Shown piece by piece: positions 11,423-64,000 of a stretch of DNA of 64,000 bases (its first letter is position 1; the number at the start of each line of letters is the position of its first letter). The stretch lies in assembly GCA_016223135.1 (NCBI GenBank), contig JACRPQ010000016.1, positions 1-64,000 on the forward strand, written 5' to 3'. A program made the translations under genes and the position numbers. Under the pieces are notes generated by a model, which was given only the letters and a program-made list of their open reading frames with translations, was not told the origin of the DNA and made no database searches. The DNA comes from Chloroflexota bacterium. GTDB taxonomy: Bacteria > Chloroflexota > Anaerolineae > Anaerolineales > Villigracilaceae.

Positions 11423-11443
11423 CACGCGGAATGCATATCATCT

Positions 11444-11605
11444 CTCATCTCCCGGACAAATCGTCCGCCGAAGTTGGCACCATCCTCAGTTATCAGTCAT
11501 CAGTTTACAGTAATCAGTGACTGTTCACTGATCACTGACCACTGATTACTGAGCGAGTGGTTGCCGAGGCGTCATCGGGTCGGTCCCTCAGCCTCTCTGG
11601 ATGAG
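11444..11605 (-). promoter_or_regulatory. SAM-I (S-box) riboswitch upstream of metH
   Basis: Minus-strand core motifs appear in order: P1 strand CTCATC, then AGAGAGGCTGAGGGACCGAC, CCGATGACGCC, GGCAACC, GGTGCCAACTT, a small hairpin CGGAC-GATTT-GTCCG, and P1 closing strand GATGAG. This is the S-box layout (GAGGGA, GATGA, GGCAACC, GGTGCCAA). SAM binding should favour the downstream terminator and switch off metH when SAM is plentiful. The variable hairpin between GGCAACC and GGTGCCAA is swollen by a 69-base palindromic insertion. Confidence 0.93.
11485..11553. repeat. Palindromic CAGT-rich repeat inserted in the riboswitch P3 hairpin
   Basis: The segment begins CTCAGTTATCAGTCATCAG, ends CACTGATTACTGAG and is built of CAGT/ACTG units. 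It is self-complementary, so the insertion extends the hairpin rather than breaking the aptamer. Confidence 0.85.
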
Positions 11606-11627
11606 CAAGTCCGTAAATTGTTCGGGG

Positions 11628-61610: not shown

Positions 61611-61706
61611 GAATTCGGGATAACGCTTTTGAATCGTCCCGAAGGCTTTTGACGCAGCGGGTTCGAGAGCAGAATCAACCTTCGGGACACTTATCCCGAA
61701 CTGACG
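61611..61706 (+). repeat. TTCGGGATAA palindromic element, copy 4
   Basis: Intact copy from GAATTCGGGATAA to TTATCCCGAACTGACGT. It lies between the thiolase-like gene and the attenuator region of the aspartate kinase operon. Confidence 0.9.
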
Positions 61707-61753
61707 TGAATAAAAATAACAGCGCGGGCGTTCTTTGTAGAATTGTTATTTGC

Positions 61754-61782
61754 TTGACGAATATTTTCTGTAATGATATAAA
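61754..61782 (+). promoter_or_regulatory. Promoter of the aspartate kinase operon
   Basis: TTGACG (61754-61759), 17-base spacer, TATAAA (61777-61782). The predicted start is only a few bases before the leader ATG 61793. Confidence 0.82.
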
Positions 61783-61792
61783 CGCGCCCAAC

Positions 61793-61867
61793 ATGAAACC
61801 AGTCTGTCTGATGACCACCACTACTACTTCCCTCCGGCGGCGCCGCAGGGTTTTTGTGGTTGGGTAA
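61793..61867 (+). CDS. Threonine-type leader peptide
   Basis: 24 codons with five consecutive Thr codons (ACC ACC ACT ACT ACT, 61814-61828) after MKPVCLM, then SLRRRRR and a short tail. Such a run is the hallmark of leader peptides for threonine/lysine-family operons (compare E. coli thrL). The adjacent downstream genes make aspartyl phosphate and semialdehyde, which fits. It should sense charged tRNA-Thr. No Shine-Dalgarno is visible, because the mRNA starts close to the ATG. Confidence 0.85.
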   Translation: MKPVCLMTTTTTSLRRRRRVFVVG

Positions 61868-61930
61868 GACAGACTGAAAGAACCGTACCACACTTAATGC
61901 CCTGCGCTGCCGCAGGGCATTTTTATTTTC
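61830..61930 (+). promoter_or_regulatory. Attenuator with mutually exclusive hairpins
   Basis: Segment 1 CCCTCCGGC (61830-61838, directly after the Thr codons) can pair with segment 2 GCCGCAGGG (61842-61850). Segment 2 can instead pair with segment 3 CCCTGCG (61900-61906), or segment 3 with segment 4 CGCAGGG (61911-61917). The 3:4 stem ATGCCCTGCG/CGCAGGGCAT is followed by TTTTATTTT. A ribosome stalled on Thr codons would cover segment 1, free segment 2 and prevent termination. Confidence 0.82.
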
Positions 61931-61948
61931 CATTTCCGGAGGAGAGTC

Positions 61949-63388
61949 ATGCAAAAAGAATCAGCGCCTCAAACTCTTGTAATGAAGTTCGGCGGAACTT
62001 CGGTTGGCTCGTCGGAGGCAATGGCAAGGGTCCTTCAAATTGTGAAAGATGCCCGCGCTGGTTGGCGGCACGTCGTCCTTGTTGCGTCTGCGCTTTCGGG
62101 CGTCACGAACCTGCTTTTAGAGAGCGCCGCTGCCGCCGCGCACGGCGACAGCTCGCAACTACCCAATGCCAAACAAACGCTCGTCGCCAAACACCAAAGC
62201 ATCGCTGATATTCTAATCGCCGATGAAACGCGCCGCGCCGCTGTGATGAATGAGATTGACGGACTCGCGCGTTTGTTCGTTGAACTATGTCAAGCCGTCT
62301 CGGTGCTTGGCGAGACCACCCCCCGTACATTGGATGCGGCGGCGTCGCTGGGCGAGCGAATGAGCGTGCGCTTGTTGGCTGCCGTATTGGAAAGCGCCGG
62401 CATCCCATCCAAATATATCGAAGCCGGAGAAATCATCATCACCGACGATCACTTTCAAGCGGCGCATCCCGATTTTGCTCTGACGACGGAACGGACACGG
62501 CGTATCCTGCTTCCGCTGCTTGAACAAGGTCTCACGCCGGTCGTTACCGGTTTCTTAGGCGCTACACGCGAGGGCATTGTCACCACACTGGGACGCGGCG
62601 GCAGCGATTACTCTGCCGGCATTTTGGGCGCTGTTTTACCTGCCGATGAGGTATGGATTTGGACCGATGTGGATGGCATCATGACCGCCGACCCGCGCAT
62701 CGTCCCGGATGCTCAAACTCTGCCGCAAATTTCTTACAGCGAAATCGCCGAACTGGCTTACTTTGGCGCAAAAGTGCTGCACCCGAAAACCATTCGTCCG
62801 CTGGTAGAAGCGGGGATTGGACTGCGCATTTGCAACACCTTCAACCCTCAACATCCCGGCACGCGGCTGGTAGCCAACGGAAAGAACGGCGCCAAATTAC
62901 AAAAGGGGGAACAAATCATCAAAGCGGTTACTGCCATTCGTCAACAGCGGCTGGTGACCATTGAAGGGCGCGGTATGTTGGGTGTGCCGGGGGTGGCGGC
63001 GCGCGCCTTTGCGGCGGTGGCATCCACCGGCACCAGCGTTCCACTCATCACACAAGCCTCCTCGGAGCAATCCATTTGCTTCGCCATACCCAGCGAAGCC
63101 TCTCCATCTGTTTTATCAGCGCTCGAAAAAGCCTTTGCGCTCGAACTGGCGCAGCGCGATATTGACCGGATTTGGGCTACGGAAGAAGTTTCCATCATCA
63201 CCGCCGTCGGAGAAGGCACACGGTACACGCCCGGTGTGGCTGGGCGAATTTTCACCCAACTCGGCAGCGCCGAGATCAATGTACTTGCCGTTGCGCATGG
63301 TTCGTCCGATGTCTCCATCAGCATGGTGGTCAACTCTGCCGAAACTGAAAAAGCGGTGCGCGCTTTACATCAACTGATTATCCAGTAA
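61949..63388 (+). CDS. Aspartate kinase, monofunctional
   Basis: 479 residues. VMKFGGTSVGSSEAMARV is the amino acid kinase signature, followed by GRGGSDYSAGILGAVLPADE and VWIWTDVDGIMTADPRIV. The C-terminus has two ACT domains (about 330-479), so feedback by threonine or lysine is likely. It phosphorylates aspartate, the first step towards Thr, Met and Lys. GGAGGAGAG precedes ATG 61949. It lies downstream of the Thr attenuator. Confidence 0.95.
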   Translation: MQKESAPQTLVMKFGGTSVGSSEAMARVLQIVKDARAGWRHVVLVASALSGVTNLLLESAAAAAHGDSSQLPNAKQTLVAKHQSIADILIADETRRAAVMNEIDGLARLFVELCQAVSVLGETTPRTLDAAASLGERMSVRLLAAVLESAGIPSKYIEAGEIIITDDHFQAAHPDFALTTERTRRILLPLLEQGLTPVVTGFLGATREGIVTTLGRGGSDYSAGILGAVLPADEVWIWTDVDGIMTADPRIVPDAQTLPQISYSEIAELAYFGAKVLHPKTIRPLVEAGIGLRICNTFNPQHPGTRLVANGKNGAKLQKGEQIIKAVTAIRQQRLVTIEGRGMLGVPGVAARAFAAVASTGTSVPLITQASSEQSICFAIPSEASPSVLSALEKAFALELAQRDIDRIWATEEVSIITAVGEGTRYTPGVAGRIFTQLGSAEINVLAVAHGSSDVSISMVVNSAETEKAVRALHQLIIQ

Positions 63389-63414: not shown

Positions 63415-64000
63415 ATGTATCCCATCCCCGTTGCCATTCTTGGCGCCACCGGCGCAGTCGGTCAGCGTTTTGTATCGCTGCTGGAACAGCACCCCATGTT
63501 CCAGGTCGCAGCGTTGGCAGCCAGCGACCGTTCTGAAGGCAAAACCTATGCCGAAGCCTGCCGATGGATTCTTTCCGACCCCATGCCGGCTTGGGCGCGA
63601 GAAATGACCCTGCTGCCGTGTCACCCCCAAGCCATGCCCGAAGCCAAAATCGTCTTTTCCGCTCTCCCCTCGGAACAAGCCAAAATCGTGGAACCGGCGT
63701 TCGCAGCGGCGGGCTTTGCCGTCTTTTCCAACGCTTCTGCGTTTCGCCGCGAGCCCGATGTGCCGCTCCTGCTTCCCGAAGTCAACGCTGACCATGTTCA
63801 CCTGGTTCGCCATCAACGTCTTGTCCGCGGCTGGAGCGGCTGTATCGTCACCAACCCCAACTGCACCAGCAGCGGTTTGACGGTGGCGCTCAAAGCGTTG
63901 GACAATGCCTTTGGTCTGAAACGCGTTTTTGCAGTTTCGCTCCAAGCGCTTTCCGGCGCCGGCTATCCGGGCGTCCCTTCGCTGGATATTCTCGATAATG
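63415..64000 (+). CDS. Aspartate-semialdehyde dehydrogenase, N-terminal part (runs off the window)
   Basis: 195 residues are visible. VAILGATGAVGQRFVSLLEQ is the NADP-binding start, and the active-site Cys is in IVTNPNCTSSGLTVALKALD. The pattern is that of the archaeal/fungal ASADH group. It reduces aspartyl phosphate to semialdehyde. It starts 26 bases after aspartate kinase with AAAGGAG, so both are one operon. The 3' end is outside the window. Confidence 0.93.
   Translation, partial: MYPIPVAILGATGAVGQRFVSLLEQHPMFQVAALAASDRSEGKTYAEACRWILSDPMPAWAREMTLLPCHPQAMPEAKIVFSALPSEQAKIVEPAFAAAGFAVFSNASAFRREPDVPLLLPEVNADHVHLVRHQRLVRGWSGCIVTNPNCTSSGLTVALKALDNAFGLKRVFAVSLQALSGAGYPGVPSLDILDN

Follow-up and report, generated by a model that had tools for sequence, protein, structure and literature searches.

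A candidate threonine leader-peptide attenuator, probably near-leaderless, before aspartate kinase in Anaerolineae of the Chloroflexota

Leader-peptide attenuation of amino-acid operons is well known in E. coli. The gamma-proteobacterial thr attenuator (Rfam RF00506, Thr_leader), which precedes an aspartate kinase gene, combines a leader peptide containing threonine codons with alternative antiterminator and terminator structures, and these elements recur before an aspartate kinase gene in a Chloroflexota genome of 3.8 Mb. The locus lies in the window analysed here, a stretch of 64,000 nucleotides (contig 10, positions 1-64000), and raises the question of whether a threonine-sensing attenuator of the classical type is present in this phylum.

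A sequence-only reading of the window had proposed such a system and stated that no description was known in the lineage. The latter agrees with the part of the literature on Chloroflexi, Chloroflexota and Anaerolineae that was covered, in which no such attenuator was found. According to the accessible part of a survey from 2010 (PMC2965389), its authors knew of no leader-peptide system, ermC aside, that had been demonstrated beyond Proteobacteria and Actinobacteria until they presented a Firmicutes case of their own, and in the accessible part of PMC4833913 the Chloroflexi are named only as a phylum with too few genomes. Candidate histidine attenuators of Firmicutes (PMC9413887, accessible in part) likewise place classical attenuation outside Proteobacteria through comparative genomics, but they concern histidine, the his operon and another phylum. 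A conserved threonine (perhaps threonine/methionine) attenuator in Chloroflexota would extend the mechanism to another phylum.

Leader anatomy and predicted folding switch

Re-reading of the sequence located the threonine-rich leader ORF and the attenuator segments at 61754-61930, as had been proposed (Table 1). The 24 codons and the five consecutive threonines were confirmed, and so were the mutual complementarity of segments 2, 3 and 4, the mutually exclusive pairings 1:2, 2:3 and 3:4, and the terminator at the end. Because CGCAGGG is common to segments 2 and 4, both are able to pair with segment 3, whose partner is segment 2 in the antiterminator and segment 4 in the terminator. A methionine codon (61811-61813) lies directly 5' of the threonine run, the spacer from TTGACG to TATAAA is 17 nt, and the terminator ends about 20 nt 5' of aspartate kinase. 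In addition, a 10-bp outer stem (CAGTCTGTCT/AGACAGACTG, 61800-61809 with 61867-61876) encloses 1:2, and its counterpart in many relatives, read by eye, is seemingly a small hairpin right after the stop codon.

Table 1. Features of the leader region and of the genes behind it (window positions)
Feature	Position	Strand	Basis
Predicted -35 element of the leader promoter, TTGACG	61754..61759	+	Sequence and conserved TTGA
Predicted -10 element, TATAAA	61777..61782	+	Sequence; leader ATG 10 nt on
Leader peptide ORF MKPVCLMTTTTTSLRRRRRVFVVG, 24 codons + TAA	61793..61867	+	Sequence; leader ORFs of relatives
Five consecutive Thr control codons, ACC ACC ACT ACT ACT (codons 8-12)	61814..61828	+	
Segment 1, CCCTCCGG	61830..61837	+	Minimum-free-energy fold; pairs with segment 2
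Segment 2, CCGCAGGG (61843-61850) + GTGGT (61856-61860)	61843..61860	+	Partner: segment 1 or 3
Segment 3, ACCAC (61887-61891) + AATGCCCTGCG (61896-61906)	61887..61906	+	
Segment 4, CGCAGGGCATT	61911-61921	+	Sequence
Intrinsic terminator stem-loop 3:4, 11 bp, loop 61907-61910	61896..61921	+	Terminator scan
T-rich terminator tail, ATTTTTATTTT	61919..61929	+	Sequence
Shine-Dalgarno-like motif of the kinase gene, CGGAGGAGA	61937..61945	+	Sequence
Aspartate kinase, 479 aa	61949..63388	+	TIGR00657, 403.7 bits (cut-off 208.7)
Aspartate-semialdehyde dehydrogenase	63415..64000, on to contig position 64467	+	NF006416, 263 bits (cut-off 232)

The leader departs from chance expectation. Its folding energy has z = -4.98, with none of 200 shuffles as stable, and it is the sole ORF of 10-60 codons on either strand of the 64 kb with a run of five identical T, H, N, I, V, L, F, Y, W, C or M residues; with any residue allowed, five ORFs have such runs. 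A plain terminator scan recovers the leader terminator, which proves little by itself because it returned 3 terminator-like sites against 2.0 expected by chance. The promoter scan missed the TTGACG/TATAAA pair, since it requires the second hexamer to end in T, and the predicted leader promoter is called from conservation.

Aspartate-semialdehyde dehydrogenase is probably encoded by the second gene of the kinase operon: asd follows the kinase gene within 400 nt at 42 of the 50 loci compared, and at four of the remaining eight the available sequence ends less than 60 nt beyond the kinase. The two products make the threonine precursor, so that the regulated genes serve the synthesis of the sensed amino acid. 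The kinase gene had no match in the phage collection.

The aspartate kinase leader very probably acts by ribosome-mediated transcription attenuation in response to threonine. The ribosome would initiate almost at the RNA 5' end and translate the leader; with charged Thr-tRNA scarce, it would stall on codons 8-12 and cover segment 1, the 2:3 antiterminator would form and block the 3:4 terminator, and RNA polymerase would continue into the aspartate kinase and aspartate-semialdehyde dehydrogenase genes. With threonine plentiful, the ribosome would reach the stop codon, 1:2 would close behind it, 3:4 would form and transcription would stop near 61929-61930. The transcription start, the stalling, the termination and the threonine response are steps that we infer from the observed anatomy, conservation, covariation and predicted folding switch.

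The switch was followed by constrained folding of 79 aligned leaders, using the RNA to the end of segment 3 with everything up to the ribosome's leading edge unpaired and with textbook ribosome footprints. With the ribosome on the last threonine codon, 2:3 formed with a mean probability of 0.88 (above 0.5 in 74 of the 79; 1:2 is excluded by construction), against 0.21 without ribosome (16 of 79) and 0.23 with the ribosome at the stop codon (18 of 79). The corresponding values in the window were 0.98, <0.001 and 0.007. In silico, a ribosome on the control codons thus moves folding towards the antiterminator. The 1:2 hairpin with the ribosome at the stop codon is weaker than in the classical picture, exceeding a probability of 0.5 in only 31 of 79 leaders and reaching 0.17 in the window.

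Conservation and covariation among relatives

A kinase search at E <= 1e-60 gave 100 places in 98 of 152 genomes of the same family, and 90 of the 100 upstream regions were read (left out: G106, G135, G142, G020, G088, G090, G091, G062, G022 and G134). A leader ORF with threonine codons precedes the kinase at 81 of these 90 loci. It is absent from the other nine, two of which have just 51 and 85 bases upstream; no leader was seen in the 246 bases upstream at L046, and six absences are clear, five in genus g7 and one in g10 (L075). Alignment A1 comprises 79 leaders and excludes 11 of the 90 loci, among them the leader-bearing L034 and L074; for L052, which offered no promoter-associated ATG, the aligned sequence begins at an internal one.

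The sequence-only reading had named a lack of conserved threonine codons or stems in relatives as counter-evidence, and both turned out to be kept. Threonine occupies codons -1, -2 and -3 before the hairpin in 72, 68 and 64 of the 79 aligned leaders, at least three threonine codons precede the hairpin in 77, and the stems covary. Altogether the 79 leaders hold 375 threonine codons, compared with 170.7 in shuffles, and the third positions vary while the amino acid is kept (ACC 216, ACT 127, ACA 24, ACG 8).

A related kinase with the same type of leader was also found at ten loci in Anaerolineales/Chloroflexi MAGs (L092-L098, L100, L105, L106). At the Anaerolinea loci L099 and L104 a promoter-like site lies directly before the kinase, with no leader or terminator evident, and the attenuator seems to be absent there; a threonine-containing GTG ORF 236 nt upstream at L104 was judged a chance occurrence, since the promoter-like site lies after it. 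Among 61 loci from Acidobacteria, archaea and others (L111-L171, some with little upstream sequence), a filter for at least four threonines in eight residues returned a single ORF, at L170, which was likewise judged to be chance.

The covariation check that had been proposed for relatives was run over the 79 leaders and came out positive for both sets of helices, with counts that the relatedness of the leaders inflates. For 1:2 (alignment columns 78-84 with 90-96) together with 3:4, 91.0% of cells were paired, and both-side changes occupied 63 cells against 18.7 in shuffles, none of 500 being as high. For 2:3 the figures were 88.7% and 47 cells against 16.5, again with 0 of 500 shuffles as high; two of its five measures were no better than shuffles (both-side-change pairs 125/500, pair types 146/500). 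Controls with the partner slid by 1-3 columns reached at most 9 pairs and 38 cells for 1:2 plus 3:4, compared with the real 10 and 63, and at most 12 both-side-change cells for 2:3, compared with 47. The main terminator helix 3:4 is paired in 97.8% of cells, and two of the 1:2 pairs are often open, the one at columns 82-92 in 39 and the one at columns 84-90 in 40 of the 79 leaders.

Nine of the 79 leaders (L008, L050, L052, L067, L068, L071, L078, L088, L089) carry a 1-nt deletion in the 1:2 loop, and these may represent few independent events. The deletion shifts the C-terminal frame, for example to SRFSVRNLCLD from SG..REAFVLG, yet segment 2 still reads CCGTGAGG or CCGCGAGG, which argues that the C-terminal stretch is selected as RNA. 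The control codons behave in the opposite manner, the threonine residues being kept while the third positions vary.

These observations also bear on two other readings of the locus. The highly structured leader would suit a riboswitch, T-box or similar element that binds a metabolite or a protein and contains the ORF only incidentally, but no riboswitch or T-box family reached its gathering score in the window's leader or in those of the seven relatives scanned, and the conservation of threonine at the amino-acid level with varying third positions speaks further against such a leader, which we consider very improbable. It is hardly credible, moreover, that a stand-alone terminator merely adjoins a small ORF without any regulation: the alternative 2:3 pairing is kept with covariation, part of segment 4 is duplicated in segment 2 and the threonine codons are conserved, against the one favourable point that terminator-like sites in the region are about as frequent as chance. 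Joint changes affect the same columns of segments 2, 3 and 4 within mutually exclusive helices, a pattern for which an ordinary terminator offers no explanation. On all sequence evidence, the leader appears to be a real, conserved attenuator of the classical type, with a putative function in threonine control.

Start type and codon mix

What is new in this putative attenuator is its start type and its codon mix. The gamma-proteobacterial thr leader has threonine and isoleucine codons, and the leaders here have threonine and methionine codons; the operon there is thrABC, and here a monofunctional kinase gene with asd. The present leader further differs by its near-leaderless start, its phylum and the lack of an RF00506 match, none being obtained at gathering score in the whole window or at E up to 10 in 61700-61960. 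No Rfam family at all reached its gathering score in the window's leader. Seven weak Rfam matches in the leader (E up to 10) lay far below the gathering scores and were attributed to chance; the best, Hrs10, was on the other strand (22.6 bits vs 108), and Phe_leader (20.1 bits vs 55) aligned mainly over the terminator. RF00506 is carried by thrA of Shewanella, according to the accessible part of PMC2659441.

The claim that the ORF starts a few bases from the predicted transcription start agrees with TATAAA 10 nt before the ATG and with conservation of the predicted promoter in relatives. With the -10 element at this distance, the predicted 5' UTR has only a few nucleotides. Of the 81 family leaders, 79 have TTGA 34-44 nt before their ATG, the distance being 39 nt in 47 leaders and 40 nt in 19, a spacing towards which the counts lean because the leader picker preferred ORFs with TTGA 36-42 nt upstream. 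As TTGA thus lies 39-40 nt before the ATG in 66 of 81, the peptide is probably translated from near the RNA 5' end. TANNNT was found 8-15 nt before the leader ATG in 58 of 81; the TATAAA of the window does not fit this pattern and is outside the 58. A Shine-Dalgarno-like motif is missing from the leader ORF of the window and was found near the leader ATG at 1 of 81 loci, against 66 of 81 near the kinase start. In the window's genome the near-leaderless-start pattern is unspecific, with 137 matches versus 58 for a reversed control. Among 12 Chloroflexi genomes, 4 were predicted to contain leaderless genes, averaging 4.7% of genes, as given in the accessible part of PMC3160421.

With its ORF beginning so close to the predicted 5' end of the RNA, the leader would also make a clean system in which to study attenuation by leaderless initiation. 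Leaderless leader peptides of Actinobacteria are reportedly likewise translated without a ribosome-binding site and serve other amino acids and genes: leaderless polycysteine sORFs of mycobacteria were reportedly described by Canestrari in 2020, and the Corynebacterium glutamicum ilvBNC leader is said by Morbach in 2000 to do without a ribosome-binding site.

Threonine and methionine are the two amino acids in which the homoserine branch ends, and joint sensing of them would refine threonine attenuation rather than replace it; the evidence leaves this refinement evenly balanced. The 79 leaders contain 150 in-frame methionine codons before the hairpin, where 500 dinucleotide shuffles gave 23.9 +- 4.7 and at most 39, and ATG occurs there only 1 and 3 times in the other two frames; these related leaders are not independent, and the shuffles ignore kinship. 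Codons -3 to -7 are threonine or methionine in 75, 70, 60, 68 and 59 of the 79, and 74 have at least one internal methionine before the hairpin. On the contig of the window, a methylenetetrahydrofolate reductase-like gene lies 3' of asd, a position that may point the same way.

A second family of the same class, f23, has a kinase match in 54 of 61 genomes and a leader rich in threonine and methionine with a strong terminator before the kinase at 27 of the 30 loci read. Its 27 leaders hold 138 threonines and 91 methionines among 656 residues, the ORFs having been chosen for high T+M content, and methionine also follows the threonine codons. Together with the methionine enrichment among threonine codons in the window's family, this suggests combined sensing. 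In f23 the leader and the terminator are seen and the antiterminator only weakly: a test for a single ungapped 2:3 helix failed (1 of 20 leaders with at most 4 of 200 shuffles as good), and when 15 of the 27 leaders were truncated ahead of segment 4 and folded jointly, a weak 6-bp helix (-2.0 kcal/mol) appeared between the ORF and segment 3. The same kind of test in the window's family gave 55 of 79 leaders with at most 2 of 100 shuffles as good. Further threonine/methionine leaders precede the kinase at L188 (same order), L210 (f58), L213 (f23) and L110 (a Chloroflexi bin).

Against combined sensing, the methionine codons could be spare start codons, and the window has a single internal methionine, at codon 7, where a stalled ribosome would, by a geometric estimate, just miss segment 1. 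In the window's own leader threonine dominates. SAM riboswitches were found in the window (11442-11607, - strand) and, in three of the seven relatives scanned (L005, L011, L018), beyond the kinase gene as seen from the leader, so that methionine has a second RNA control in the group.

Attenuator-like leaders before other amino-acid genes

Model R1 matched 49 of 396 genomes of the class at E <= 0.01, and many of the weak ones among these resemble attenuator leaders for other amino acids. In the window's genome it found one strong site (E 1.4e-18), the next (E 1.15) being the leader of asnA. These further leaders of the same genome, the methionine codons of relatives and the missing Shine-Dalgarno motif go beyond the sequence-only reading, which concerned a single window. 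Leader-peptide attenuation with short and often near-leaderless ORFs might equally well be or not be general for amino-acid genes in Anaerolineae, with threonine and methionine codons in the kinase version and an asparagine attenuator at asnA. The roughly 80 kinase leaders form a natural set with built-in mutational tests, the frame-shifted ones included, and such leaders would offer an amino-acid control code readable from sequence alone in bacteria known here mostly as metagenome-assembled genomes.

Thirty-three R1 places were read, genes without a cited TIGR match being named by resemblance. Five histidine codons precede hisG at L194, L217, L218 and L221 (class family f49; TIGR00070 on L217), with TTGACA/TTGACAG-like and TATACT boxes just upstream; at L217 the 70 residues of downstream protein had no Pfam match, and the full-length protein is hisG. 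A separate scan of an 84-residue fragment likewise returned no match and was set aside. ORFs rich in Ile/Val/Leu precede ilvB (L191-L193, L216, L219; TIGR00118 on L219), ilvD (L211, L212; TIGR00110 on L212) and citramalate synthase (L190, L196, L197; TIGR00977 on L197), those at L190, L196 and L212 having been read by eye from GTG. L207 and L214, the latter before a leuS-like start, were left unclassified. Eight places (L195, L199, L200, L201, L204, L209, L215, L220) showed no convincing leader and were set aside as chance matches or plain terminators.

In the window's genome, asnA (L262, G000:C12:69000-70500, - strand; TIGR00669, 393.9 bits, cut-off 292.8) is preceded by the Asn-rich leader MFDYSFANFNNNNNNNNAVLRGVGRSASNLQT, with eight consecutive asparagine codons, and by a terminator. 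An Asn-rich leader, chosen for its asparagine content, was found at all seven asnA loci in the 152 family genomes (L294-L300), in each case with a terminator-like stretch behind it that is complementary to TTGGGCG of the ORF (pairing by eye). In these asnA leaders the distance to the -10 box is greater, and hence not all leaders of this kind are near-leaderless. No ribosome-mediated attenuator for asparagine was found described, and the methionine and threonine literature likewise gave nothing, both within partial coverage.

Two more leaders were seen in the same genome. A near-leaderless ORF (MDSLPSLDSDHSTTRNPSQLETLGRV) with no clear control codons stands with a terminator-like stretch before a transporter-permease-like gene (L260, G000:C9:170500-172000). 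The chorismate mutase gene aroH (L259, G000:C11:11700-13200; TIGR01796, 152.3 bits, cut-off 82) follows the near-leaderless, Phe/Tyr-rich leader MLKSVRWFAFYFYYGFRGSVTVGGA and a terminator. In family members, Asn/Thr-rich near-leaderless leaders with a terminator precede a class I/II aminotransferase gene (L202, L203, L205, L206; PF00155 on L205). At L208 (G140:C2:18900-21600), the leader MYTRIQFANRNSNDNNDDFSIVG, rich in Asn/Asp codons, and a terminator stand before an aspartyl-tRNA synthetase gene (TIGR00459, 736.3 bits, cut-off 373.85), and this codon pair would fit an enzyme that charges both tRNAs.
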